Shown here: positions 24,375 through 36,816 of the stretch, piece after piece
How positions within the stretch are numbered: position 1 is the first letter of the stretch
Layout: each line of letters begins with the position of its first letter
Assembly (NCBI GenBank): GCA_020051175.1
Contig: JAGVJJ010000044.1
Span: 1 to 64,000, forward strand
Length of the DNA: 64,000 bases
Source of the DNA: Bacteroidia bacterium
Lineage (GTDB): Bacteria > Bacteroidota > Bacteroidia > 2-12-FULL-35-15
Direction: 5' to 3'
The notes under the pieces: model-generated
What the model saw: the letters and a program-made list of their open reading frames with translations, nothing else
Databases searched by the model: none
What the model was told of the DNA's origin: nothing
Translations under genes and position numbers: made by a program

Positions 24375-24725
24375 TTGTACAAAAAAGGCTTACATCTTAT
24401 TTCTGAATTTTCTGTGGCAGATCCCCTTGTGCTGAAAGATATGGATCGGGTTAAAACCTTTTTGAATGCTGCTGTTTACAATGCCGGCCTGTCAAAGGTA
24501 GGTGAAGTATTTCACCAGTTTTCGGATGCCGGGTATACAGGTATTATCTGCCTTACAGAATCACACATTTCCATCCATACATGGCCTGAATTCAACAGGG
24601 TCACGTTTGATGTGTTCCTTAGCAATTTTCTGAAGTACAATGATGATATAGCGGAGAAAATACATTCCGATTTATTATTGTTGCTGGACGCTGACGAAGT
24701 AAATATAACACGTTTAAACAGGTAA
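24375..24725 (+). CDS. SpeD-like pyruvoyl-dependent decarboxylase (AdoMet decarboxylase family)
   Basis: 116 residues starting at TTG. The family's self-processing site is present: TESHISIHTWPE, with S63 as the pyruvoyl precursor after E62, and H68 of the catalytic/processing site. Canonical bacterial SpeD continues with VDVFTCG, giving catalytic Cys83; here the sequence is FDVFLSN, so position 83 is Ser. Position 55, usually Ser, is Thr. Processing is plausible, but AdoMet decarboxylation is doubtful. SpeD-family enzymes that use L-arginine or L-ornithine instead are known. First gene of an eight-gene operon with a spermidine-synthase-like enzyme; 3 bases separate it from the next gene. A weak TATATTTA box lies at 24345-24352. 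Confidence 0.85.
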   Translation: MYKKGLHLISEFSVADPLVLKDMDRVKTFLNAAVYNAGLSKVGEVFHQFSDAGYTGIICLTESHISIHTWPEFNRVTFDVFLSNFLKYNDDIAEKIHSDLLLLLDADEVNITRLNR

Positions 24726-24728
24726 GTT

Positions 24729-25385
24729 ATGCTGAGTGTAATTGTCAATAAATCTGTTTGCCCCTCATGCTCCGCTACACATCAGCTTTCCATTGCACTT
24801 CCCCTGTTTGCTGGCTGCGTATCCTGCGGTTGCGTTTACTTTGTCGATAAAGAAAAAGTTACAACTAAAACAGACCTGAAAGCAATGCCTGTTCAGCCCT
24901 TCAGTATTATCTCAGTTGGTACAAAAGGAAAGTACAAGGGCACCGAGTTTGAAGTCATAGGGCACATCCGCAGCATTGGTTCCGGGGCAATCAGCAACGA
25001 ATGGCTGATGAAGATGGCAACTGGCCTGCTGTTATGGCTTTGTGAATGTGGCTTTAATTATTCTGTTTTTGATCCCAGGCCTGTAAAGCTAACGCAGGAT
25101 CACATCAGGCATATCAAAGCCGGGGAATGGATGTCTGTTGAGAACAAAGACTATACAGTCACTGATTTATCAAAGCAGGTTGAGTTCCAGATGGAGGGCC
25201 AACTTCCCGAGGAGTGTTTTAACAATGAGCCTTATTTTGAGTACAACGCCATTGATATAAAGGATAAGGGGCTGTTATCGGTTTGTATTTTTGATAAAAA
25301 TACGATTGAAGGATTCCGGGGACAGAGTATTTCACTTAACAGTCTTGAGCTTTCGGGTATGGATAAATTTAAAAGCTGGATATAA
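24729..25385 (+). CDS. Zinc-ribbon DUF4178 protein
   Basis: 218 residues. An N-terminal zinc ribbon holds C11-x-x-C14 and C30-x-x-C33, with C35 extra. The DUF4178 domain (about 55-205) opens with IISVGTKGKYKGTEFEVIGH and ends with a FKSWI tail; an internal stretch is rich in beta strands. There is no signal peptide or membrane helix, so it is cytoplasmic. DUF4178 has no established biochemical activity; the family tends to lie near DUF350 and spermidine-synthase genes, as here. Three bases after the speD-like gene and 12 before the next DUF4178 gene. Confidence 0.8.
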   Translation: MLSVIVNKSVCPSCSATHQLSIALPLFAGCVSCGCVYFVDKEKVTTKTDLKAMPVQPFSIISVGTKGKYKGTEFEVIGHIRSIGSGAISNEWLMKMATGLLLWLCECGFNYSVFDPRPVKLTQDHIRHIKAGEWMSVENKDYTVTDLSKQVEFQMEGQLPEECFNNEPYFEYNAIDIKDKGLLSVCIFDKNTIEGFRGQSISLNSLELSGMDKFKSWI

Positions 25386-25397
25386 TACATCAACTGG

Positions 25398-26675
25398 TTG
25401 GAGAAAAATACTGAAATAGAAGTTTCAAAGGCTGCTTGCGGAAAGTGCGGTACAGTATTACAAATGTATTTGCGTGCAAGCGCATATTCTGTTGTTTGTT
25501 CCTCCTGTGGTGCAATTCATAATTGTTATAATGGGGAGCCTGAGCTTACCAACCATATCGTGGGGAAGGCTGCTGATTCGCATATTTCAGTTGGTATCCG
25601 TGGTACGCTTAAAGGAATCCCTTACCTGGTTACAGGTTATGTGTATAAAAAAGAAAATGGTACCAATTATTGCTGGGAAGAATATGTACTGTTTAATCCG
25701 GTTCATGGACAAGCCTATTTATCGCAATTTGACGGGCACTGGATGTGCCTGTGTGAAATGGCAGACATCCCTTCTGCAACCGGCCTGGTTGCTACCCATG
25801 ACGGCTCAACCTACAACCTGTATTCAAAATATAAATCGAAGATACTGAGTGCAAGGGGGGAGTTTGTTTATAAGATCGATCCTTCGGAGACCCCTATAGT
25901 AGAGGAGTATATAAGGCCCGGGTATTTGGTTTCAAAGGAGCGTACAAAAGATTATGCTACCTGGTACAAGGGTGAATACATTCAGCCCTCTGTAATAAAA
26001 AGTAGTTTTCAGCTAGCATCAGTACCTGAAACCAAAGGTGTAGGGATGATTCAGCCCTTTCTGGGAAAATTCTCGCAAGAAGGTTTGCGCAAGGTTTTTA
26101 TATTTTTATTTATTTTCTGGAGCCTCCTTCAATTCTATTTTACATTTGCCTCACGTGAGGAAATTGTGTTTGAGCAGCCTTTCAGTATTACCGATTCATT
26201 GCACGGAAAGGAAATCAATTCCAGGTCCTTTGAGCTGAAAGGCGGAACCTGCAATGCCGAAATACAGGTACATACCAATGTGCAAAATAACTGGATGTGT
26301 ACTGCTGTTACACTAGTAAATGAAAAAACAGGCGACATTTTTGATGTGGGACTGGAGGCTGAATACTATTATGGCTATACGGATGGAGAAAGCTGGTCAG
26401 AAGGTACAGGCTGGGTTTCAAAGGTTGTGTCACAGGTGCCTGAAGGTACGTATTACATGGTCATTACTCCCGAAAAGCCCACTTCGGTGCCGGTTGTAAA
26501 CATAACAGTAACAGTTATAAGAGATGTGTTTATCATGTCGAATGGCTTGATAGTATTGGCGTTGCTGAGTATTTACCCGATATACTATCATTTCAAAAAG
26601 AATAAGTTTGAAAAGCAGAGGTGGTACAACAGTGATTATTCACCATACGAAAATAATGATGAAGACAATTATTGA
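25398..26675 (+). CDS. Zinc-ribbon DUF4178 protein with membrane anchors
   Basis: 425 residues from a TTG start. N-terminal zinc ribbon C14-x-x-C17 and C34-x-x-C37, then a DUF4178 domain (about 68-200; VGIRGTLKGIPYLVTGYVY, FDGHWMCLCEM), like its upstream neighbour but longer. Residues about 230-250 form a transmembrane helix. A beta-rich segment of about 130 residues follows, probably outside the membrane, and a second helix lies near 380-402. The topology thus places the zinc ribbon and DUF4178 on one side and the beta domain on the other. Its 3' end overlaps the next small gene by 20 bases. Function unknown. Confidence 0.8.
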   Translation: MEKNTEIEVSKAACGKCGTVLQMYLRASAYSVVCSSCGAIHNCYNGEPELTNHIVGKAADSHISVGIRGTLKGIPYLVTGYVYKKENGTNYCWEEYVLFNPVHGQAYLSQFDGHWMCLCEMADIPSATGLVATHDGSTYNLYSKYKSKILSARGEFVYKIDPSETPIVEEYIRPGYLVSKERTKDYATWYKGEYIQPSVIKSSFQLASVPETKGVGMIQPFLGKFSQEGLRKVFIFLFIFWSLLQFYFTFASREEIVFEQPFSITDSLHGKEINSRSFELKGGTCNAEIQVHTNVQNNWMCTAVTLVNEKTGDIFDVGLEAEYYYGYTDGESWSEGTGWVSKVVSQVPEGTYYMVITPEKPTSVPVVNITVTVIRDVFIMSNGLIVLALLSIYPIYYHFKKNKFEKQRWYNSDYSPYENNDEDNY

Positions 26676-26844
26676 TAAAGAAGATCTGAAAGGGTTAAAA
26701 TATTACCTGATTTTCGCAGGTATTTTAATGACATTTTATATTTATTCTATGGCTACAGGGCTGCGTTATTTAAGCTTTGGTGAATCCAGCCACAGCCGTG
26801 AAAAAGGCAGCTCCGGCCGAAGCCACTATTATTACCATAAATAA
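26656..26844 (+). CDS. Small membrane protein, 62 residues, His/Tyr tail
   Basis: ATG at 26656 (or 26659), within the end of the preceding gene; the longer in-frame form starting at 26608 is less likely because it lies fully in the upstream coding sequence. One hydrophobic helix (about 13-34), then a tail containing SSHSREKGSSGRSHYYYHK. The tail ends in Tyr, His and Lys and could bind metal or polyanions. No family match by eye. Overlap and position between DUF4178 and DUF350 genes argue that it is expressed as part of this operon. Confidence 0.6.
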   Translation: MMKTIIDKEDLKGLKYYLIFAGILMTFYIYSMATGLRYLSFGESSHSREKGSSGRSHYYYHK

Positions 26845-26865
26845 ATTTAAAAAGCAAAAATAAAA

Positions 26866-27081
26866 ATGGAAACTTTACACTTACAGTATCTTACAGCAGC
26901 AGTGGTTTATGCCCTTATAGGGATTGTTATCCTGGTTGTATCTTTTTGGGTCATTGAAAGAATATCGCCTGAAAACCTTTGGAAAGAAATTATTGAAAAA
27001 CAAAACAAGGCACTTGCAATACTTGCAGCGGCTTTCATGATTGCAATTGCAATCATTATTTCATCGGCCATACACGGTTAA
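26866..27081 (+). CDS. DUF350 family membrane protein
   Basis: 71 residues with two membrane helices (about 8-30 and 46-68) separated by a short charged loop: an amphipathic VIERISPENLWKEII segment followed by a QNKALAILAAAFMIAIAIII helix. This is the DUF350 (YjfL-type) pattern, in a short one-unit form; larger members repeat the hairpin. DUF350 often co-occurs with DUF4178, PspA-like proteins and polyamine or ATP-grasp ligase genes. Nine bases before the spermidine-synthase-like gene. Confidence 0.82.
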   Translation: METLHLQYLTAAVVYALIGIVILVVSFWVIERISPENLWKEIIEKQNKALAILAAAFMIAIAIIISSAIHG

Positions 27082-27089
27082 GCATCTGA

Positions 27090-28604
27090 ATGTCGGGTAC
27101 CAGGGAAAAAAAGAACCAGCTGTTATTGCTGATTTCAGTTTTTGTAATCGCAACATGCGGTCTTATTTATGAGCTGATAGCAGGAACACTGGCCAGTTAC
27201 CTGCTTGGTGATTCTGTTACCCAGTTTTCTGTCATTATTGGTATTTATCTCTTTTCAATGGGGATTGGTTCATACCTTTCCAAGTTCTTCCGTACCAATC
27301 TTTTGGTATGGTTTATACAGATTGAAATACTGGTAGGTGTTGTAGGGGGTATCAGCTCTACACTCCTTTTCTTTTCATTCGAACACGCATCCGGTTTTCA
27401 CATCATACTTTACAGCCTTATTGTTCTTACAGGAACCTTGGTAGGCCTTGAAATACCTTTGCTGATGCGTATTTTAAAAGACGAATTTGATTTCAGCGAA
27501 CTGGTGTCGAAAGTTTTTACATTTGATTATATCGGTGCTTTGTTTGCATCCATACTATTTCCCTTGTTTATGGTGCCTTACCTGGGGCTTTTGAAAACAT
27601 CATTTCTTTTCGGATTGTTGAATGTGATGGTGGCCATTATCCTGTGCTTTACATTTGAATCAATCAAATACCTCAGTTTTTTACGCATACAGGCCATAGT
27701 AGCAGCCTTCCTGCTACTTATCGGCTTTGTGTTTGCGGAGCAGATACAATCCTATTCTGAGACAATTACCCTAGGGGAAAATATTATTTTCAGCAAGTCC
27801 TCGCCCTATCAGCGCATTATTGTTACAAGCGAAAAAGGGGTAACCAAACTGTATCTCAACAATAACCTGCAGTTTAGCTCTGCTGATGAATACCGTTATC
27901 ATGAAGCGCTCGTGCATCCAGGTCTTTCGCGTATTAAGGAACCTTCACGCGTACTCATACTTGGAGGTGGTGATGGTTTTGCCGTGCGCGAAGTTTTGAA
28001 ATACCCTACAGTAAGCAGCATTACACTTGTTGACCTGGATTCTGCTGTAACCAGTATTTTCAGGCAATCGGACTTTTTATCTGCGCTCAACAGTGGTGCG
28101 CTCAACAGTCCGAGGTTGAAAGTAATCAATACCGATGCGTTTCGTTGGCTCAAAGAAAATAGCGAAACTTATGATTTTATTGTAATCGATTTTCCCGATC
28201 CTTCCAACTTCTCTGTAGGCAAGCTATACACCACGTCTTTTTACAAAGAAGTACGAAAGGCACTGGCTCCGGGGGCTTCATTCGTTGTTCAGAGTACTTC
28301 GCCTTATATGGCCCGTAAATCTTTCTGGTGTGTGAACAACACCATTGCAGCCACCGGTTTTAAAACAATGCCATATCACGTTTATGTTCCTTCGTTTGGT
28401 GAATGGGGATATGTGATGGCCTTTGATACACTTGCTGCTAAATCCTATTACATACCCCAGCAATTAAAATTTTATGATGAGGCCCGGTATGCAGAGATGA
28501 CAACCTTTCCTAAGGATATGGCTTATGAGCCTACGGAAATCAATAAGCTGAACAACCAGATTCTTATACATTATTTCGAAGATGAGTGGGGAAGGGTTCA
28601 ATAA
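27090..28604 (+). CDS. Membrane-embedded spermidine-synthase-like aminopropyltransferase
   Basis: 504 residues. The N-terminal half (about 10-215) has six or seven membrane helices; the C-terminal half (about 230-490) is a spermidine-synthase-type methyltransferase fold. Family motifs are present: DEYRYHEALVHPGL (YHE), LILGGGDGFAVREVL, LVDLD, NTDAFRW and the DFPDP loop that replaces the usual D-x-x-DP. Soluble SpeE moves aminopropyl from decarboxylated AdoMet to putrescine; here the acceptor could be membrane-bound or polymeric. Location next to the SpeD-like gene gives a plausible source of donor. Overlaps the next gene by 23 bases. Confidence 0.83.
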   Translation: MSGTREKKNQLLLLISVFVIATCGLIYELIAGTLASYLLGDSVTQFSVIIGIYLFSMGIGSYLSKFFRTNLLVWFIQIEILVGVVGGISSTLLFFSFEHASGFHIILYSLIVLTGTLVGLEIPLLMRILKDEFDFSELVSKVFTFDYIGALFASILFPLFMVPYLGLLKTSFLFGLLNVMVAIILCFTFESIKYLSFLRIQAIVAAFLLLIGFVFAEQIQSYSETITLGENIIFSKSSPYQRIIVTSEKGVTKLYLNNNLQFSSADEYRYHEALVHPGLSRIKEPSRVLILGGGDGFAVREVLKYPTVSSITLVDLDSAVTSIFRQSDFLSALNSGALNSPRLKVINTDAFRWLKENSETYDFIVIDFPDPSNFSVGKLYTTSFYKEVRKALAPGASFVVQSTSPYMARKSFWCVNNTIAATGFKTMPYHVYVPSFGEWGYVMAFDTLAAKSYYIPQQLKFYDEARYAEMTTFPKDMAYEPTEINKLNNQILIHYFEDEWGRVQ

Positions 28605-30204
28605 AGATATTTCACGAAGAACATTTGTAAAGCTGGCGGGTGTTGCATTGGCTTTTCCTTCCTGCAGTTTTCTGAAGGAAAAAGACTCATTTCCTGTTAC
28701 TATTGCCGGTTCCGCTTCCAAAACCGGTCATTTGCTGCGCGAAAATAAATTTCCTGAACCTGCTGAGACAGTTCGTGTAACAACACTGATTGTAGGTGGT
28801 GGCATTTCGGGGTTAAGTGCGGCCCGCTGGTTAAAGAAAAACGGGCTGTCTGATTTTAAGCTGCTGGAGCTGGATACAGAGGCTGGTGGTAATTCAAAAG
28901 GTGGGGAAAATGCTGTAAGCAGGTATCCATTCGCGGCTCATTACCTTCCTATACCAAATGAAAAGTTTCAGGAGCTGATTGATTTTTTACATGAACATGC
29001 TGTTATTACAGGTTTTGATCAGAATGGCCTGCCCGTATACAACGATTATTATATCTGCTTTGAGCCCGAGGAACGGCTTTTCTACCGAGGCCTCTGGCAG
29101 GAAGGTCTGCCACCTAAGACTGGTCTTATTGACGAAGAGACCGCTGAGCTGGCGCGCTTTATGAAGGAAATGGACAGGTATAAAGAGCATATAGGTTCAG
29201 ATAAACGCAAGTCCTTTACCATTCCTCTTGAGCTAAGCAGTACTGATCCCGAGCTTATGAAGCTGGATGGCATGACTATGGCCGAATACCTTGAAAGGGA
29301 AAATTACAAAACGCCTTTTATCCGCTGGTATCTTGATTATTGCTGCAAGGATGATTTCGGAACTTCCATAAAAAATACTTCTGCATGGGCGGCATGCCAT
29401 TACTTTGCATGCAGGACGGGAAAGGCTTCCAATGCTGATGCTTCGGATGTTTTAACCTGGCCGGAAGGAAATAATTTTCTTGCAAAAAAATTGCTGTCTG
29501 AAGTGCAATCAAATGTTGAGGTGCAGATGCTTACCTATAAAATTGAACAGGTAGGCGATGAATGGCATAGTTACGTTTACGATGTGCAAAATCAAAAAAG
29601 TATAAAATATGTTTCTAAATCGGTAATACTTGCTACTCCCCAGTTTGTAAATAAAAAAATTCTTTCTCTTCAAACCGCTGTCAATTGGGATGAGTTCAGC
29701 TATTACCCGTGGATTGTAGCCAACATTACCATCCATGATAAAAAAAGCCTGAACGGTGGAGTGGAGCTTTGCTGGGACAATGTGCTTTACAACTCAACTT
29801 CACTGGGCTATGTGAATGCCTGTCACCAGAGTGTGAACGTGCAGGAAAAAACAGTGCTTACGTATTATTACAATTTTTCTGAACGGTCTGCCCGGGAAGA
29901 GCGGCAGGAGATTTACAGCAAAGACGAAAATTATTGGAAAAATTTTATCCTCGAAGATTTAAGAACTGCCCATCCTCATATTGCTGAGCATATTGAGTCG
30001 GTTGAGGTGAATGTGCTCGGGCACGGAATGATTAGTCCGGTGGCAGGTTTCAGAACCAGTCCTTCGCGTGCAAAGCTGGCCGAGGGACACAGCGGACTTT
30101 ATTTTGCCCACTCCGATGTAAGTGGTATTTCTATTTTTGAACAGGCATTTTACCGTGGTATATGTGCCGCGAAGCAGGCGTTGCAGAGCAATCAGAGGGC
30201 ATGA
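28582..30204 (+). CDS. Tat-exported lipoprotein FAD amine-oxidase-like enzyme
   Basis: 540 residues. The N-terminus has twin-arginine SRRTFVKLAG (12-21), a hydrophobic stretch and a lipobox ending at the Cys of FPSC, so it should be folded in the cytoplasm with FAD, exported by Tat and lipidated. The Rossmann motif TLIVGGGISGLSAARWL and the downstream LLELDTEAGGNS are typical of the flavin amine oxidase/protoporphyrinogen oxidase family; the C-terminal FAD contact is GLYFAHSDVSGISIFEQAFYRG. Substrate is unknown; a polyamine or aminopropyl product of the neighbouring gene is the obvious idea. The start overlaps the preceding gene by 23 bases, and the stop overlaps the next ATG (ATGA). Confidence 0.83.
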   Translation: MSGEGFNKDISRRTFVKLAGVALAFPSCSFLKEKDSFPVTIAGSASKTGHLLRENKFPEPAETVRVTTLIVGGGISGLSAARWLKKNGLSDFKLLELDTEAGGNSKGGENAVSRYPFAAHYLPIPNEKFQELIDFLHEHAVITGFDQNGLPVYNDYYICFEPEERLFYRGLWQEGLPPKTGLIDEETAELARFMKEMDRYKEHIGSDKRKSFTIPLELSSTDPELMKLDGMTMAEYLERENYKTPFIRWYLDYCCKDDFGTSIKNTSAWAACHYFACRTGKASNADASDVLTWPEGNNFLAKKLLSEVQSNVEVQMLTYKIEQVGDEWHSYVYDVQNQKSIKYVSKSVILATPQFVNKKILSLQTAVNWDEFSYYPWIVANITIHDKKSLNGGVELCWDNVLYNSTSLGYVNACHQSVNVQEKTVLTYYYNFSERSAREERQEIYSKDENYWKNFILEDLRTAHPHIAEHIESVEVNVLGHGMISPVAGFRTSPSRAKLAEGHSGLYFAHSDVSGISIFEQAFYRGICAAKQALQSNQRA

Positions 30205-31304
30205 AAACAAAAAGCTGGATATTATCACCCGTTTTTGATACAGTATTTATCCTGTTTCCACCATTTGCCTGCCTGCTGATTATTTTTTTATTTCCCGGTC
30301 TGTTTGATACTGCCGGTACTGAAAATGAATGGATATGGTTCCTGTTGGTGGTCTGCATTGATGTCGGCCACGTATACAGCACCATTTACCGTACGTACAT
30401 GGATAAGGAAACCATCAGCAAAAATAAGCTGTTGTTCTACCTGAGCCCGGTAGCTATTTATTTTGTTTGTGTGCTCATGCATTCCATGAACCCCTTGTTT
30501 TTCTGGAGAGGGATGGCCTATCTGGCCGTATTTCACTTTATTCGACAGCAATACGGCTTTCTGCGCTTGTATTCCCGTAAAGAGCAACAATCCCTCTTTT
30601 ATAGAAGCATGGATACCATTACCATTTATGCAGCAACCTTATACCCCCTTGTATACTGGCATTTGCAAGGTAAACAACAATTCAACTGGTTTGTGGATAA
30701 TGACTTCGTTTACATCAATCAGCCCTGGCTCATTCCTGTATTTCAAATCATATACGTGTTGGTACTGCTGCTGTACATTGCTAAAGAAGTCCACGGCTTC
30801 ATAAAAAGCAGGCAAATCAATATTCCTAAAAATATTTTAGTGGCCGGAACGGTTTTGTCATGGTACATTGGTATTGTTTACCTGAAAGGCGATCTCACTT
30901 TTACTCTTCTGAATGTTGTGAGCCACGGAGTGCCGTACTATGCGCTGGTGTGGGCTTTTGGCAATAAGCAGCAGCAACAGGCTAACGACAAGCCCAGCAG
31001 GATAAAGCTTTTTTTTAAACCGCAGAATATCTTGTTGTTCCTCGGATTCCTTTTGTTGCTGGCCTATTTGGAAGAATTGCTCTGGGATGGGTTTGTTTGG
31101 AAAGAGCACACAATGGTATTCCCAACCACAGCATTCCTGCCCGATATAAGCGATAGTAAAAGTCTGATGTCATTGCTTGTACCACTTTTAGCCCTTCCCC
31201 AGCTGCTTCATTACTTTATTGATGGTTTTATCTGGAAAATAAAAAAGGATCGCTATGGCTGGAGTACACTGCTATTGGGCACTCTGCCAGAAAAAAAGGA
31301 ATAA
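30201..31304 (+). CDS. Multipass membrane protein with conserved-looking histidines
   Basis: 367 residues from the ATG at 30201 that overlaps the previous stop as ATGA. Eight or nine membrane helices. Histidines sit at or near helix ends in distinctive contexts: CIDVGHVYSTIYRTY, FHFIRQQYGFLRL, VVSHGVPYYALVW, LLHYFIDGFIWK. This pattern resembles integral membrane oxygenases or desaturases, and some relatives are loosely labelled as carotene-monooxygenase-like; no such activity is shown. It is the last gene of the operon that starts at 24375. No signal peptide beyond the first helix. Confidence 0.75.
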   Translation: MKTKSWILSPVFDTVFILFPPFACLLIIFLFPGLFDTAGTENEWIWFLLVVCIDVGHVYSTIYRTYMDKETISKNKLLFYLSPVAIYFVCVLMHSMNPLFFWRGMAYLAVFHFIRQQYGFLRLYSRKEQQSLFYRSMDTITIYAATLYPLVYWHLQGKQQFNWFVDNDFVYINQPWLIPVFQIIYVLVLLLYIAKEVHGFIKSRQINIPKNILVAGTVLSWYIGIVYLKGDLTFTLLNVVSHGVPYYALVWAFGNKQQQQANDKPSRIKLFFKPQNILLFLGFLLLLAYLEELLWDGFVWKEHTMVFPTTAFLPDISDSKSLMSLLVPLLALPQLLHYFIDGFIWKIKKDRYGWSTLLLGTLPEKKE

Positions 31305-32212: not shown

Positions 32213-33484
32213 ATGGATACAATTTTGATTAAGCCACAAAGACGACTTCTGGCAGCTATTTCCTTCCTATTTTTAGTTTTAACCAGCTTTAATCAGGCGT
32301 TTGCTGAGGCTGATGGAGCAAAGCTGTTTAAACAGAACTGTGCCGTTTGTCATAGTCTGGGCGATAATAAAATCACTGGTCCCGGCCTGAAAGGTGTTGC
32401 TGCCCGTGTTCCAGCTGACCCATGGTTGTTTAACTGGATTAAAAACAACAAGGAAGTTATCAAAAGCGGTGATGCATATGCTAAGAAGATCCTTGCTGAA
32501 TATAATGGTGCGGACATGAGCACTTTTACTCACTTAACAGATGATGAAATCAATGCGTTGGTTGCTTTTGTTAAGAACCCTCCTGTTGAAGTTAAAACAA
32601 CTACTCCAACTGATGAGGCTAAGGGCCCTAAAGGTGCTACAGAGGAAGGTGTGAACCCCCTTGCTATCCTTATTGGCGTTATCGCTTTCCTAATCATTAT
32701 CATTGGTGTATTGCGCGGTGTTACCCACTCACTTAAAAATATCCAGAACGAAAAGCAAGGCTTGCCTGAAGAAGAAGCTGTTGGTCCTTGGGATGAAATT
32801 AAAAACTGGATCGTTACACATAAAACAACAACCGCTGTAATTATCCTTATCATTCTTGGTGGACTTCTAACAGAAGGGTGGTACGCTTTAAAAGGTATTG
32901 GTGTATACGAAGGCTATCAGCCTGTACAACCGATTGCGTTCTCTCATAAAATTCACGCGGGCGACAATGCTATTAACTGCCAGTATTGCCACTCCGGTGT
33001 TGAGAAAAGTAAAACAGCAGGTATTCCTTCTGTAAATGTGTGTATGAACTGCCACAAAGGAATTTCCAGTGGTCCAACTACCGGAACAGAAGAGATTGCG
33101 AAAATATACGAGGCTGCTGGTTTCGACCCGAAAAGCGGTGAATACACCAAGCCACAGAAACCTATCCAATGGATAAAGGTTCACAACCTTCAGGATTTTG
33201 TTTATTTCTCTCACCAGCAACACGTAAAAGTAGGTAAACAGGATTGTGCAAACTGTCACGGTGATGTAAAAACAATGACCGTTGCAAAACAGGTAAGTCC
33301 TTTAACAATGGGCTGGTGTATCGACTGTCACAGAAAGACGGAAGTACCAGGCATGAAAGACAACCCATACTATGAAAGCCTGCACAAAAAGCTTGCTGAG
33401 AAATACAAAGGCCTTCCAAAAGAAGAGCAGGTAATTACCGTTGCAAAAATGGGCGGTATCGACTGCGGAAGATGTCACTACTAA
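32213..33484 (+). CDS. actA: Alternative complex III subunit ActA, multihaem cytochrome c
   Basis: 423 residues with six CxxCH haem sites. An N-terminal signal (1-31) precedes a monohaem cytochrome c domain (CAVCH 43-47). Two membrane helices (about 150-168 and 207-226) come next. The C-terminal five sites are CQYCH 256-260, CMNCH 277-281, CANCH 345-349, CIDCH 369-373 and CGRCH 418-422, the last at the very end. The pentahaem part is the usual ActA that passes electrons from the quinol-oxidising module; the extra N-terminal haem is a fused domain. First gene of the respiratory operon; 68 bases before actB. A complete set of conserved ligands is seen. Confidence 0.93.
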   Translation: MDTILIKPQRRLLAAISFLFLVLTSFNQAFAEADGAKLFKQNCAVCHSLGDNKITGPGLKGVAARVPADPWLFNWIKNNKEVIKSGDAYAKKILAEYNGADMSTFTHLTDDEINALVAFVKNPPVEVKTTTPTDEAKGPKGATEEGVNPLAILIGVIAFLIIIIGVLRGVTHSLKNIQNEKQGLPEEEAVGPWDEIKNWIVTHKTTTAVIILIILGGLLTEGWYALKGIGVYEGYQPVQPIAFSHKIHAGDNAINCQYCHSGVEKSKTAGIPSVNVCMNCHKGISSGPTTGTEEIAKIYEAAGFDPKSGEYTKPQKPIQWIKVHNLQDFVYFSHQQHVKVGKQDCANCHGDVKTMTVAKQVSPLTMGWCIDCHRKTEVPGMKDNPYYESLHKKLAEKYKGLPKEEQVITVAKMGGIDCGRCHY

Positions 33485-33552
33485 TATCTTGAACAGATAC
33501 AACAGTCAAGCGTTTAGAATTTAGAAATCAGAGATTAGAATTTATACAAGAT

Positions 33553-36500
33553 ATGGCAACAAAAAAATACTGGAAAGGACTTGAAGAGTTAAGCAACAGT
33601 CCTGAGTTTGTTCAAAAAGTAAATAATGAATTTGCGGAACAAATACCTGTAGAAGAGTTTTTAGGCGATAATAACCTGGCTTCCAACAACGGTACAAACC
33701 GCAGGGATTTTTTAAAATTCTTAGGTTTCAGTGTTGCTGCTGCATCCCTGGCTGCCTGCGAAGCCCCTGTAAACAAAGCTATCCCTTATGTTGTAAAACC
33801 TGAGGAAATTACTCCGGGTGTTGCCAACTGGTATGCTTCTACTTACTTTGACGGACGTGATTATGCTGCCCTTGTTGTTAAAACAAGAGAAGGCCGACCG
33901 ATTAAAGTTACGGGTAACACCTTATCAAAAGTGTCAAATGGTGCTACCAACGCACGTATTCAGGCTTCCATACTTTCATTATACGATTCATCACGTTTAA
34001 CTGGTCCTGTTGCTGATAAAAAAGCTTCAACCTGGTCTGCTGTTGATTCTGAAATAGGTGGTAAGCTTGCTGCTATTGTTGCAAAAGGTGGTGCTATCCG
34101 CATTTTATCTTCAACCATTATCAGCCCTTCTACAAAAGCTGTAATGGACGAGTTCATGGCAAAATATCCGGGTACAAAGCACGTAACGTATGATGCTATC
34201 TCTTATTCAGCAATAACAAACGCCAATGCACAAACTTTCGGTCAGGGAATTATCCCTACGTACCGTTTTGAGGATGCACAGGTGGTTGTGAGTATCGGAG
34301 CTGATTTCCTTGCAAACTGGATCGAAGATTTCTCTGTTGCTTATGGAAAAAACAGGAAAGTAAGCAAAGAAAAAGCGGTGATGTCAAAACATTACCAGTT
34401 CGAGTCTAACCTTTCGTTAACAGGTGCTAATGCCGATGAGCGTGTTCCTGTTAAAGTTTCTGAGCAGGCTAAAGTGGTTGTAAACCTGCACAATGAAGTG
34501 GCTAAGCTTGTTGGTGTTGCTACACTGCCTTCTGCTGAGCTGGCTTGTGATGCAATGATTGCTAAAGTTGCAAAAGACCTGGTTGCAAACAAAGGGAAAT
34601 CATTGGTGGTGAGCGGTTCTAACGATACCAATGTTCAGCTGATTGTGAACGAAATCAATACCTTGATTGGAAGCTACGGAAAAACCATTGATATGGAAAC
34701 TCCAAGCTACATCAATCAAAGTGATGACAAAGCATTCACAGCCCTTGTTGCGGATATGGCAGCAGGAAAAGTTGATGCCATCATCACTTACAATACTAAC
34801 CCTGTGTATACCGCTCCTGCAGCCTTAAAATTTGCTGAAGCATATAACAAAGTAGGTCTTCGTATTTCATTTGCCGACAGGGCCGATGAAACAGCAGATC
34901 TTGCAAACTATATCTGTCCTGACCACCATTACTTAGAGTCATGGAATGATTTTAACCCGAGAAAAACTCATTTTAGCCTTTCTCAGCCAACTATCCGCCC
35001 TTTGTTTGCGGATATTAACTCAGGAACACGTCAGGCACAGGATACACTATTGAAATGGGCTGGTAACACTACAGACTATTATACTTACATTCAGAAAATT
35101 TGGGCTGAGCGTGTGTTCCCGATGCAGGGCAAATACATGACATTTACTGAATTCTGGAACAATGCATTGCACGATGGCGCTATTGAAGTAGGCAAAGGGA
35201 CTGAAGGGCCTGTTGCTGCGGAGAAAGATGGAAAAGCAAAACCTGTAGCTGCTGCAAAAACAGAAGATGCAGAGAAAAAAGAAGAAGAGAAACCAGCTTC
35301 GGCTGTAAACTTAAAACAGGCAGCACGTGAAATCAACGCTGTTCAAGGCGGTGAATTTGAGCTTGCACTGTATGAAAAAACCGGTATCGGTAATGGTAAC
35401 CAGGCAAACAACCCTTGGTTGCAGGAATTACCGGATCCTATCACCAAAATTACCTGGGATAATTATGTTACCATGTCGCCTTTAGACATGAAAGACAAAT
35501 ATAATCTGATGGAGCGCCAGGACCGTGAAGCAAGCGTTGTAACGGTTACAGTTGACGGGCTTTCAGTCGAACTGCCTGTCGTACCTCAGCCTGGACAAGC
35601 GCGTGGAACTATTGGTATAGCTGTTGGTTACGGCAGGGAAAAAGCTGGTAAACTAAGCACACAGGTTGGAGTTGTTGGTAAAAATGTATTCCCATTCACA
35701 CAGGTGGTGAACGGTACATTGAGCTATGCAGCCCTGGATGCTAAAGTTGCAAGTGCAAACAAAACAACTGAAATTGCCGGGACTCAGATACATCACACGC
35801 TGATGGGCCGTGAGATTGTAAAAGAAACCAATTTAGAGAACTATAAAAAGAACCCTAAATCCGGTAACCACGATGAAATGATCATCACTCACTCCGGCCC
35901 TAAAAAGGCGGAAACTATTGACTTGTGGGATGAGCACGTAAAACCGGGTCACCACTGGGGAATGACCATTGACCTTAACTCCTGTTTCGGTTGTGGTGCC
36001 TGCGTAGTAAGCTGTACTGCCGAAAACAACGTTGCTGTTGTTGGTAAAGAGCAGGTAATGAAAACCCGCGAAATGCACTGGCTGCGTATCGACCGCTATT
36101 ACAGCAGTGATATGAATGAAGTGGTTGCGCACAAAGATCACAAAGGTGCTATTGATATGTACCTTGAAATGGAAAATCCATCAGCTGCAAATCCTAAAGT
36201 AGTTTTCCAGCCAATGCTTTGCCAGCACTGTAACCACGCACCATGCGAAAATGTGTGTCCGGTTCTTGCTACCAACCATAGCAATGATGGATTAAACGTA
36301 ATGACTTATAACCGCTGTGTTGGTACACGCTACTGTGCAAACAACTGTCCTTATAAAGTTAGACGTTTCAACTGGTTCAACTATAACGGAAATTCAGATT
36401 TTGCATTCAACCCTACACAGGACGATTTAGGACGCATGGTGTTAAACCCTGACGTAGTAGTACGTTCACGTGGTGTAATGGAAAAATGTACAATGTGTAT

Positions 36501-36816
36501 CCAGCGTATCCAGGCAGGTAAGCTGGATGCTAAAAAAGCAGAGCGTCCATTGATTGATGGAGAAGTAAATACAGCTTGTGCTGAAGCTTGCCCTACTAAC
36601 GCTATCGTGTTTGGTGACTTAAATGATCCGAACAGCGCAATCAGCAAATTGAGAAAACAAGAAGCTGATGGCCGTGATTACCATGTATTGGGTGAAATCG
36701 GAACTAAGCCAGGTATCTCTTACTTAACGAAAGTAAGGAACTGTGAAGAAACAATTGGCGGGCCTTCAGAGCACGGACATGAGGCTGCACATACTGAGGA
36801 AAAAGCAGAAGCGTAA
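33553..36816 (+). CDS. actB: Alternative complex III subunit ActB, molybdopterin-oxidoreductase-like Fe-S protein
   Basis: 1087 residues. Tat signal NRRDFLKFLG (49-58) with a following AAC site (C69), suggesting export and lipidation. The large N-terminal region (about 70-720) is like the catalytic chain of molybdopterin oxidoreductases but serves as a structural, cofactor-free domain in ACIII. The C-terminal part (about 790-1050) binds Fe-S clusters: CFGCGACVVSC, CQHCNHAPCENVCP, CVGTRYCANNCPYKVRRF, CTMCIQR and CAEACPTNAI are visible. An Ala/Lys/Glu-rich segment (about 555-590) is an insertion between domains. It transfers electrons within the quinol:cytochrome c oxidoreductase complex. Encoded between actA and actC. 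Confidence 0.94.
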   Translation: MATKKYWKGLEELSNSPEFVQKVNNEFAEQIPVEEFLGDNNLASNNGTNRRDFLKFLGFSVAAASLAACEAPVNKAIPYVVKPEEITPGVANWYASTYFDGRDYAALVVKTREGRPIKVTGNTLSKVSNGATNARIQASILSLYDSSRLTGPVADKKASTWSAVDSEIGGKLAAIVAKGGAIRILSSTIISPSTKAVMDEFMAKYPGTKHVTYDAISYSAITNANAQTFGQGIIPTYRFEDAQVVVSIGADFLANWIEDFSVAYGKNRKVSKEKAVMSKHYQFESNLSLTGANADERVPVKVSEQAKVVVNLHNEVAKLVGVATLPSAELACDAMIAKVAKDLVANKGKSLVVSGSNDTNVQLIVNEINTLIGSYGKTIDMETPSYINQSDDKAFTALVADMAAGKVDAIITYNTNPVYTAPAALKFAEAYNKVGLRISFADRADETADLANYICPDHHYLESWNDFNPRKTHFSLSQPTIRPLFADINSGTRQAQDTLLKWAGNTTDYYTYIQKIWAERVFPMQGKYMTFTEFWNNALHDGAIEVGKGTEGPVAAEKDGKAKPVAAAKTEDAEKKEEEKPASAVNLKQAAREINAVQGGEFELALYEKTGIGNGNQANNPWLQELPDPITKITWDNYVTMSPLDMKDKYNLMERQDREASVVTVTVDGLSVELPVVPQPGQARGTIGIAVGYGREKAGKLSTQVGVVGKNVFPFTQVVNGTLSYAALDAKVASANKTTEIAGTQIHHTLMGREIVKETNLENYKKNPKSGNHDEMIITHSGPKKAETIDLWDEHVKPGHHWGMTIDLNSCFGCGACVVSCTAENNVAVVGKEQVMKTREMHWLRIDRYYSSDMNEVVAHKDHKGAIDMYLEMENPSAANPKVVFQPMLCQHCNHAPCENVCPVLATNHSNDGLNVMTYNRCVGTRYCANNCPYKVRRFNWFNYNGNSDFAFNPTQDDLGRMVLNPDVVVRSRGVMEKCTMCIQRIQAGKLDAKKAERPLIDGEVNTACAEACPTNAIVFGDLNDPNSAISKLRKQEADGRDYHVLGEIGTKPGISYLTKVRNCEETIGGPSEHGHEAAHTEEKAEA

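Follow-up and report, generated by a model that had tools for sequence, protein, structure and literature searches.

A conserved Bacteroidota operon for a membrane aminopropyltransferase, with a small His-Lys-ending protein as its candidate acceptor

The stretch of DNA analysed here (the window) comprises 64,000 nucleotides, positions 1 to 64,000 of the forward strand of contig JAGVJJ010000044.1, from a Bacteroidia bacterium (GenBank assembly GCA_020051175.1; Bacteroidota, Bacteroidia, 2-12-FULL-35-15). In the open reading frame (ORF) list of the window, eight ORFs span positions 24375-31304, all on the plus strand (Table 1). They include genes for a SpeD-like decarboxylase of S-adenosylmethionine (AdoMet), an aminopropyltransferase fused to transmembrane helices (membrane SpeE, gene 6), a flavin oxidase (gene 7) and a small membrane protein (gene 4), which, owing to its C-terminal His-Lys (HK), is the best candidate for the acceptor of the transferase. 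The intergenic gaps are 3, 12, 21 and 8 bases. Genes 3 and 4 overlap by 20 bases if gene 4 starts at the ATG at 26656 and by 17 if it starts at the ATG at 26659; genes 6 and 7 overlap by 23 bases, and genes 7 and 8 by 4 with a gene 8 start at the ATG at 30201. A description of this DNA made earlier from the sequence alone (the original prediction) had listed eight genes on one strand, no two of them more than 21 bases apart and several overlapping, by 20, 23 and 4 bases; this is confirmed, the 20 depending on ATG 26656 and the 4 on ATG 30201.

Table 1. The eight genes of the operon, with positions in the window.
Gene	Description	Position	Strand	Match or basis
1	SpeD-like class 1b AdoMet decarboxylase proenzyme, TTG start	24375..24725	+	PF02675 AdoMet_dc, 3.7e-24
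2	DUF4178-like, Cys pairs near N-terminus	24729..25385	+	DUF4178, 1.4e-4
3	Cys pairs near N-terminus, then DUF4178, then two hydrophobic segments	25398..26675	+	DUF4178, 3.6e-13
4	Small protein with a single transmembrane segment, 61 residues, Ser/Gly/Arg tail with His-Lys end	26659..26844	+	Proposed substrate
5	Half-length DUF350, 71 residues	26866..27081	+	PF03994, 2.9e-15, model positions 3-66 of 133
6	Membrane SpeE: seven predicted transmembrane helices and an aminopropyltransferase domain	27090..28604	+	Spermine_synth, 6e-41
7	Flavin adenine dinucleotide (FAD) oxidoreductase, monoamine/polyamine oxidase fold, signal like that of twin-arginine translocation (Tat)	28582..30204	+	NAD_binding_8, 2.6e-8
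8	Polytopic membrane protein with invariant His, Asp and Glu	30201..31304	+	Residue alignment, structure model

The two genes earlier assigned to DUF4178 fare differently, gene 3 being a clear member (3.6e-13) and gene 2 scoring 22.5 against a Pfam cut-off of 25 bits. Inspection of the gene 3 translation by eye places a region of about 120 residues between its two hydrophobic segments. The DUF350 assignment of gene 5 stands as a family match, but the protein is a half-length unit. Genes 4 and 8 gave no match above any cut-off in the family scans. In the same scans, applied to the eight operon genes, neither a CesT/Tir or PspA gene nor a GSP_synth ATP-grasp gene was found among them.

Conservation of the operon was followed in 395 Bacteroidota genomes, searched with the oxidase, SpeE and gene 8, and in a contig scan with the oxidase that returned at least 580 relatives, the best 80 of which were kept; individual loci from these and further searches are named by L numbers below. 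The oxidase has matches at E<=1e-3 in 57 of the 395 genomes and at E<1e-100 in 15, the window's own included. All 14 of the other strong-oxidase loci adjoin membrane SpeE, DUF350, DUF4178 (gene 3) and SpeD, and gene 8 is present in 10 of them. A check of four of the 42 genomes whose oxidase match is weaker found none of SpeE, DUF350, DUF4178, SpeD or gene 8 at the locus. SpeE matches at E<=1e-30 occur in 30 of the 395 genomes; in 17 of these (own included) the identity to gene 6 is 52% or more, and the oxidase is present in 15 of the 17. Gene 8 matches in 23 genomes. The strong matches, 11 with the window's own, all belong to the module; the remainder comprise 11 remote relatives and one broken fragment. 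The module occurs patchily in the genus of the window, where 2 of 36 genomes (its own among them) have a strong gene 8 match.

Membrane SpeE lies on the oxidase's strand in all 80 of the best oxidase relatives, accompanied by DUF4178 (gene 3) in 75, gene 8 in 72, SpeD in 71 and DUF350 in 70, counts that are lowered by several loci ending at contig ends. Gene 2 is detected as a separate gene in 14 of the 80. In L038, one of the loci from the 395 genomes, a single gene of 629 residues replaces genes 2 and 3. Among the 96 loci that carry both oxidase and SpeE (16 plus 80), the oxidase overlaps the SpeE gene or starts within 60 bases after it in 83; it lies further away in the other 13, at most 3387 bases (L172). 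The membrane SpeE proteins are distinct in 97 of 98 loci, L040 and L147 sharing one sequence. Partial or fuller modules are found in records labelled Leptospiraceae, FCPU426, Deltaproteobacteria, Vampirovibrio, Alphaproteobacteria, Acidobacteria and others, the labels of metagenome-assembled genomes (MAGs) being taken as given. The eight genes are one tightly conserved unit, and their co-occurrence is far beyond chance. The original prediction had named rare co-occurrence of the genes as a finding that would refute it; the comparison did not refute it, membrane SpeE adjoining the oxidase in 14 of 14 close loci and sharing its strand in all 80 of the best relatives.

In most loci the interval between genes 3 and 5 holds a short ORF of differing sequence that encodes a hydrophobic helix followed by a tail rich in Ser, Gly, Thr, Arg and Asn and ending in HK. 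By a strict count, an HK-ending ORF lies within 700 bases upstream of membrane SpeE in 91 of 98 loci. Five of the seven misses are contigs that end at or near the site (L185, L195, L202, L208 and L212); in the other two, L157 and L176, the HK gene lies further upstream, behind inserted sequence. The HK end is thus found in 93 of the 93 loci with enough upstream sequence, that is, the 98 less the five cut by a contig end. Across 115 scanned loci, 56 of 10,921 ORFs not assigned to gene 4 end in HK; of these, 47 proved to be copies of gene 4 that the profile had missed. None of the other seven families keeps its C-terminal residue pair as strictly, DUF350 coming nearest with HG in 71 of 89. Only the final His and Lys are invariant in an alignment of 36 gene 4 sequences, all of which were drawn from HK-ending ORFs. 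A profile search of 5.8 billion proteins returned 50 gene 4 homologues, all 50 ending in HK, a set that is not independent of the motif because the profile contained the HK columns. Where the original prediction had treated the small transmembrane protein as an accessory, its C-terminal His-Lys makes it the leading candidate for the acceptor.

Gene 4 carries a mean net charge of +1.31 over the 15 residues preceding the helix and of -0.68 over the 15 that follow it; the N-side exceeds the C-side in 73 of 91 sequences, the reverse holds in 4 and 14 are ties. Since the N-side flank is the more positive, the tail is predicted to lie outside the cytoplasm (N-in/C-out). In the Flavobacterium-type loci L039-L042 and L144-L149 a Cys-Asp-Cys follows the helix directly in the gene 4 tail, and many other loci are without it. 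A small precursor with a hypervariable body and fixed terminal residues, encoded in a cluster of modifying enzymes, also recalls ribosomally synthesised and post-translationally modified peptides (RiPPs), and gene 4 could on that account be the precursor of a modified peptide or peptide-derived cofactor that is cut from its anchor and released after modification. The family scans, however, recognise no protease or peptidase in the operon's eight genes, and the hydrophobic anchor is visible in the gene 4 homologues inspected; of all the explanations weighed here we consider this the least probable.

Gene 6 matches NCBIfam NF002956 (PRK03612) over its full length (residues 6-503; 650 bits against a cut-off of 472) and falls below the cut-off of the canonical spermidine synthase family TIGR00417 (141 against 249.55 bits). 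Its closest solved relatives are a thermospermine synthase and a polyamine aminopropyltransferase, both, we take it, from Thermus. The equivalents of the catalytic residues Y76, D101, D173 and D176 (T. maritima numbers) are kept in 96 of 96 membrane SpeE sequences, the residue set for this comparison being the one given in the consulted part of PMC7298707. Hydropathy and charges indicate seven helices, with a Lys/Arg-rich N-terminus and Lys/Arg-rich even loops. Because of this bias, which amounts to a mean of 11.3 Lys/Arg residues in the inside loops vs 1.1 in the outside ones and is in the same direction in 96 of 96 sequences (loop borders set from the first 19), the catalytic domain is predicted to lie outside the cytoplasm. 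A more distant group of membrane SpeE proteins, taken up below, shows a similar charge topology. The earlier view of a membrane-fused aminopropyltransferase that probably acts on an envelope acceptor is supported, the canonical catalytic residues being kept.

Gene 1 scores over the TIGR03330 cut-off (78.2 against 75.65 bits) and is the sole AdoMet_dc match in the window's genome, which is 82% complete. All 90 SpeD sequences retain H68 and the pyruvoyl-site residue S63, while position 83 is divided between Ser (47 sequences, the window's gene 1 among them) and Cys (43). S63, H68 and C83 are described as essential for self-processing in T. maritima (PMC10407285, in the part consulted). The SpeD gene stands at the 3′ rather than the 5′ end of the operon in L045, L047, L195, L202, L204 and L208, and in L045 and L047 (genomes G346 and G433) it is nearer to canonical SpeD (E about 1e-33).

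The structure model of gene 7 has a predicted local distance difference test (pLDDT) score of 89.9. Its best match in the PDB is monoamine oxidase B (E 2.5e-22, TM 0.65), and putrescine oxidase and spermidine dehydrogenase are also near the top (TM about 0.65). The protein thus shares the fold of the flavin amine oxidases and differs from them in sequence (12-17% identity among the 50 matches listed), in its Tat-like signal and in having no conserved Lys column. Gene 7 lies just below the cut-off of Amino_oxidase PF01593 (17.8 vs 19.8 bits), and 55 of 62 aligned homologues match this family at E<=0.01. A Tat-like R[RK]x[FLAVIY] motif is present in 59 of the 62, a strict lipobox in 11 and a relaxed one in 41, and gene 7 is predicted to act outside the cytoplasm. 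The monoamine oxidase-type fold and the Tat-like motif support the proposal of the original prediction that an exported flavin oxidase of amine-oxidase fold follows the transferase; of the Tat signal and lipobox that it assigned to the oxidase, the former stands and the latter is weak.

The structure model of gene 8 (pLDDT 88.7) has no PDB match by Foldseek at E<=0.001. The protein had been called His-rich, which it is not by composition (8 of 367 residues); five His residues are nonetheless invariant in 57 aligned homologues (H57, H112, H154, H242 and H337), together with D54, D168, D231, E291, E292 and D341. These five His and six acidic residues suggest a candidate metal site. L224 (9072-9388, genome G418) holds gene 8 fragments only, the other module genes being undetected in the 19 kb read, and is a decayed module. 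An invariant His/Asp/Glu set in gene 8 and a penultimate His kept throughout the gene 4 clade would fit a role of the HK end at a metal or flavin centre of gene 7 or gene 8, as ligand or as catalytic tail, in which case gene 6 would modify something else. This is improbable, given that L090 and L091 retain HK although neither gene 7 nor gene 8 is detected there, and that more distant operons keep the Lys only.

L090 and L091 carry membrane SpeE and the HK protein, and the profiles detect neither oxidase nor gene 8 there. The more distant membrane-SpeE group comprises 13 loci at 36-42% identity to gene 6 (12 from the 395-genome SpeE search and one other), and in these too oxidase and gene 8 are undetected by profile. 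Oxidase and gene 8 therefore look like add-ons to the module. A Lys-ending protein with a Ser/Arg/Gly-rich tail is found in 11 of the 13 distant loci; these proteins, except that of L223, were chosen by a tail-composition scan that also gave spurious ORFs. The tail ends in FGK in seven loci (L092 and L098-L103) and in GGK in four (L094, L096, L097 and L223). The Lys-tailed ORFs of L096-L102 and L223 have 232-266 residues and a signal-like hydrophobic start followed by Cys. Those of L092 and L094, of 76 and 78 residues with an N-terminal hydrophobic segment, are weaker cases. Since the HK protein is retained in L090 and L091 and a Lys end occurs in 11 of 13 distant loci, the Lys tail goes with membrane SpeE rather than with the oxidase, and the minimal unit across the relatives is membrane SpeE plus a Lys-tailed anchored protein, usually with DUF350, DUF4178 and SpeD. 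The DUF350 of the module is a unit of about 71 residues, and most of the more distant operons have versions of 280-300 residues. At 7759-8463 of L103 a single protein appears to combine a DUF4178-like part with a hydrophobic segment and a tail ending in Lys, and so links DUF4178 to the tail.

In the two other distant loci, L093 and L095, which belong to the same genus, the tail protein ends in YGG and is adjoined by an ATP-grasp gene (GSP_synth scored for L093 only); the SpeE gene lies on the opposite strand and has Glu at the D101 position. SpeD also adjoins the divergent membrane SpeE in these loci, so that both enzyme types are present in one locus. A comparable arrangement is seen in E. 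coli, where YjfM ends in WGG and YgiB in MGG, and their genes adjoin those of YjfC and YgiC, which are annotated as peptide-spermidine ligases; yjfC also adjoins DUF350 and PspA-family genes. Like the window operon, the E. coli systems combine polyamine chemistry with an anchored protein whose tail is rich in Ser, Arg and Gly; they differ in having an ATP-grasp ligase and a Gly-Gly end where the window has an aminopropyltransferase and a Lys end. The tail end follows enzyme type, Lys with the aminopropyltransferase alone and Gly-Gly with ATP-grasp, the Gly-Gly half of this correspondence coming from four proteins. As the YGG- and GG-ending proteins adjoin genes for ATP-grasp enzymes or peptide-spermidine ligases, the C-terminal tail is a plausible polyamine target in these sister systems.

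An operon of this kind has been described before. PMC11237479 (mSystems 2024) reports, in its main text, a PSP-associated CesT/Tir-PspA operon with a membrane spermine synthase, which shares with the window operon an aminopropyltransferase fused to seven transmembrane helices, DUF350, DUF4178 and an envelope-anchored protein. The same layout is found in L098, in the order CesT_Tir, PspA, DUF4178, lipoprotein, DUF350 and membrane SpeE. In contrast to the described operon, the window operon is without a PspA or CesT gene among its eight, has a protein of 61 residues with a single transmembrane segment in place of the lipoprotein, and has a half-length DUF350, the exported oxidase and gene 8. The word "lysine" has no occurrence in the main text of PMC11237479, where the Lys end goes unmentioned. 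SpeE2 of the Pseudomonas ISS locus is likewise a spermidine-synthase-like domain fused to N-terminal transmembrane segments and is not redundant with SpeE1; unlike the membrane SpeE proteins here, which keep all the catalytic residues, it has lost the catalytic Asp residues (T556, E624, P627), according to the part of PMC7298707 consulted. In the published texts searched, neither a lysine tail nor an oxidase-bearing operon variant was found, nor an acceptor for membrane-bound SpeE proteins. Related operons are therefore already known (PMC11237479, in its main text; YgiC/YjfC), and the lysine-tail modification itself, if real, would be new as far as the texts searched show.

The adjacency of PspA, CesT-like and DUF350 genes to membrane SpeE in the related operons, and the polytopic membrane nature of gene 6 itself, could also point to a lipid or an envelope glycan as acceptor, which would still fall within the membrane or envelope acceptor that was originally foreseen. 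Family scans recognise no lipid or glycan enzyme among the eight genes, though, and such an acceptor leaves the conserved Lys-tailed protein unexplained. Gene content, which is what was looked at, gave no positive evidence for a lipid, and we regard this reading as very unlikely, marginally below that of HK as a ligand of a metal or flavin centre.

The polyamine background of the 17 operon genomes bears on a further alternative. Each has one AdoMet_dc match, which lies within the module. Membrane SpeE is the sole Spermine_synth match over the Pfam cut-off in 12 of the 17, the other five having a second, weaker match of 38.6-58.7 bits. An nspC match over the cut-off is found in none of the 17, and below-cut-off matches occur in 11. 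All 17 have a DS-family (homospermidine-synthase-like) gene, which in one genome adjoins a gene for an ornithine/arginine-family pyridoxal phosphate (PLP) decarboxylase; these genomes therefore probably make polyamines by a separate route. For this reason polyamine biosynthesis was set aside as the role of the module.

The main rival to modification of the lysine tail nevertheless remains a free product. An aminopropylated polyamine, made for example from homospermidine, would be released and oxidised outside, gene 4 being a structural subunit and its HK end a signal for docking or assembly. In favour of this are the solved structures nearest to gene 6 (a thermospermine synthase and a polyamine aminopropyltransferase), the retention of its four catalytic residues and the DS-family genes, which mean that a triamine acceptor may exist. 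According to the consulted part of PMC12803844, which cites Li 2019, bacterial homologues of a fungal fusion of membrane segments and aminopropyltransferase are experimentally uninvolved in spermidine or spermine synthesis; we infer that these homologues belong to the gene 6 family, in which case the statement speaks against a free polyamine. A docking role, moreover, poorly explains a Lys end on other anchored proteins in the distant operons. On balance we judge a free polyamine unlikely, if less so than the other alternatives.

We give about an even chance to the reading in which the operon is an envelope protein-modification unit, with gene 4 as the acceptor and, as product, a C-terminal lysine outside the cytoplasm that is first aminopropylated and then oxidised. 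SpeD, by homology, would produce decarboxylated AdoMet in the cytoplasm. Gene 6 would act as an integral membrane aminopropyltransferase with its catalytic domain outside the cytoplasm, and, more speculatively, its seven helices may carry the donor across the membrane. The acceptor would be the side-chain amine of the gene 4 C-terminal lysine, held on a flexible tail ending in His-Lys. A lysine side chain shares its aminobutyl group with putrescine, which enzymes of this fold normally take as acceptor. Gene 7 would then oxidise the N-epsilon-aminopropyl-lysine, gene 8 would perform or help a further, perhaps metal-dependent, step, and DUF350 and DUF4178 may be partners of the transferase. The lysine as acceptor, the order of the steps and the product are what we infer here. 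This reading is supported by the co-conservation of the genes; by the constant HK end of gene 4 and the link of the Lys tail to membrane SpeE; by the tails of the sister systems as plausible polyamine targets; by the predicted placement of the transferase domain, the gene 4 tail and the oxidase, all outside; by the fold that the oxidase shares with monoamine, putrescine and spermidine oxidases; and by the retention of catalytic residues in the transferase (96 of 96) and of S63 and H68 in SpeD (90 of 90). In a more specific proposal, a membrane aminopropyltransferase with its active site outside modifies the C-terminal lysine of a dedicated anchored protein, and a Tat-exported flavin oxidase and a membrane protein of a new His/Asp/Glu class process that protein afterwards; this we hold tentatively, at somewhat less than an even chance.

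Several observations weigh against modification of the lysine tail. Decarboxylated AdoMet would need to get to the outer face of the membrane, and we know of no carrier for it. The topology of both the transferase and gene 4 is a prediction from charge rules. The His of HK is not accounted for by lysine aminopropylation alone, and the distant operons have Gly at that position. Many enzymes of the flavin amine oxidase fold use a Lys near the flavin, and the alignment of 62 oxidase homologues has no column with more than 80% Lys. The Ser at SpeD position 83 in about half of the family, including the window, could mean an altered activity, and SpeD is undetected in 9 of the 80 loci, including L166, L174 and L186, whose flanks are complete. 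L093 and L095 carry membrane SpeE, yet their tail protein does not end in Lys, and the Lys-tailed protein of L103 has DUF4178-like sequence, an internal hydrophobic segment at about residue 180 and no signal.

The original prediction named no acceptor, and one is now proposed inside the operon, in gene 4. Membrane SpeE with an adjoining SpeD is found in genomes and MAGs labelled as several bacterial phyla. If the lysine-tail reading is true, it would represent a new protein modification, would place DUF350 and DUF4178 in a context, and would mean that decarboxylated AdoMet has to be present outside the cytoplasm. It would also link Psp-type membrane-stress operons and the E. coli peptide-spermidine ligases through a cationic polyamine group on the tail of an anchored protein and, together with the ATP-grasp Gly-Gly systems, would establish a superfamily of bacterial envelope polyamines that are tethered to proteins.

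Minor features of individual loci complete the description. In L157 (2934-7446) about 4.3 kb with an XRE-like ORF and an ORF of 1263 residues separates the HK gene from membrane SpeE, and DUF350 is undetected there. A role as a defence system was considered and set aside: PADLOC reports a partial match of gene 6 residues 279-412 to mad2 (9.9e-17) and weak matches for genes 5, 7 and 8 (0.0033 to 0.033). Downstream of the operon, at 32213-36816 of the window, lie genes whose products look like a multihaem cytochrome c and an Fe-S/molybdopterin-like protein, similar to subunits of alternative complex III.

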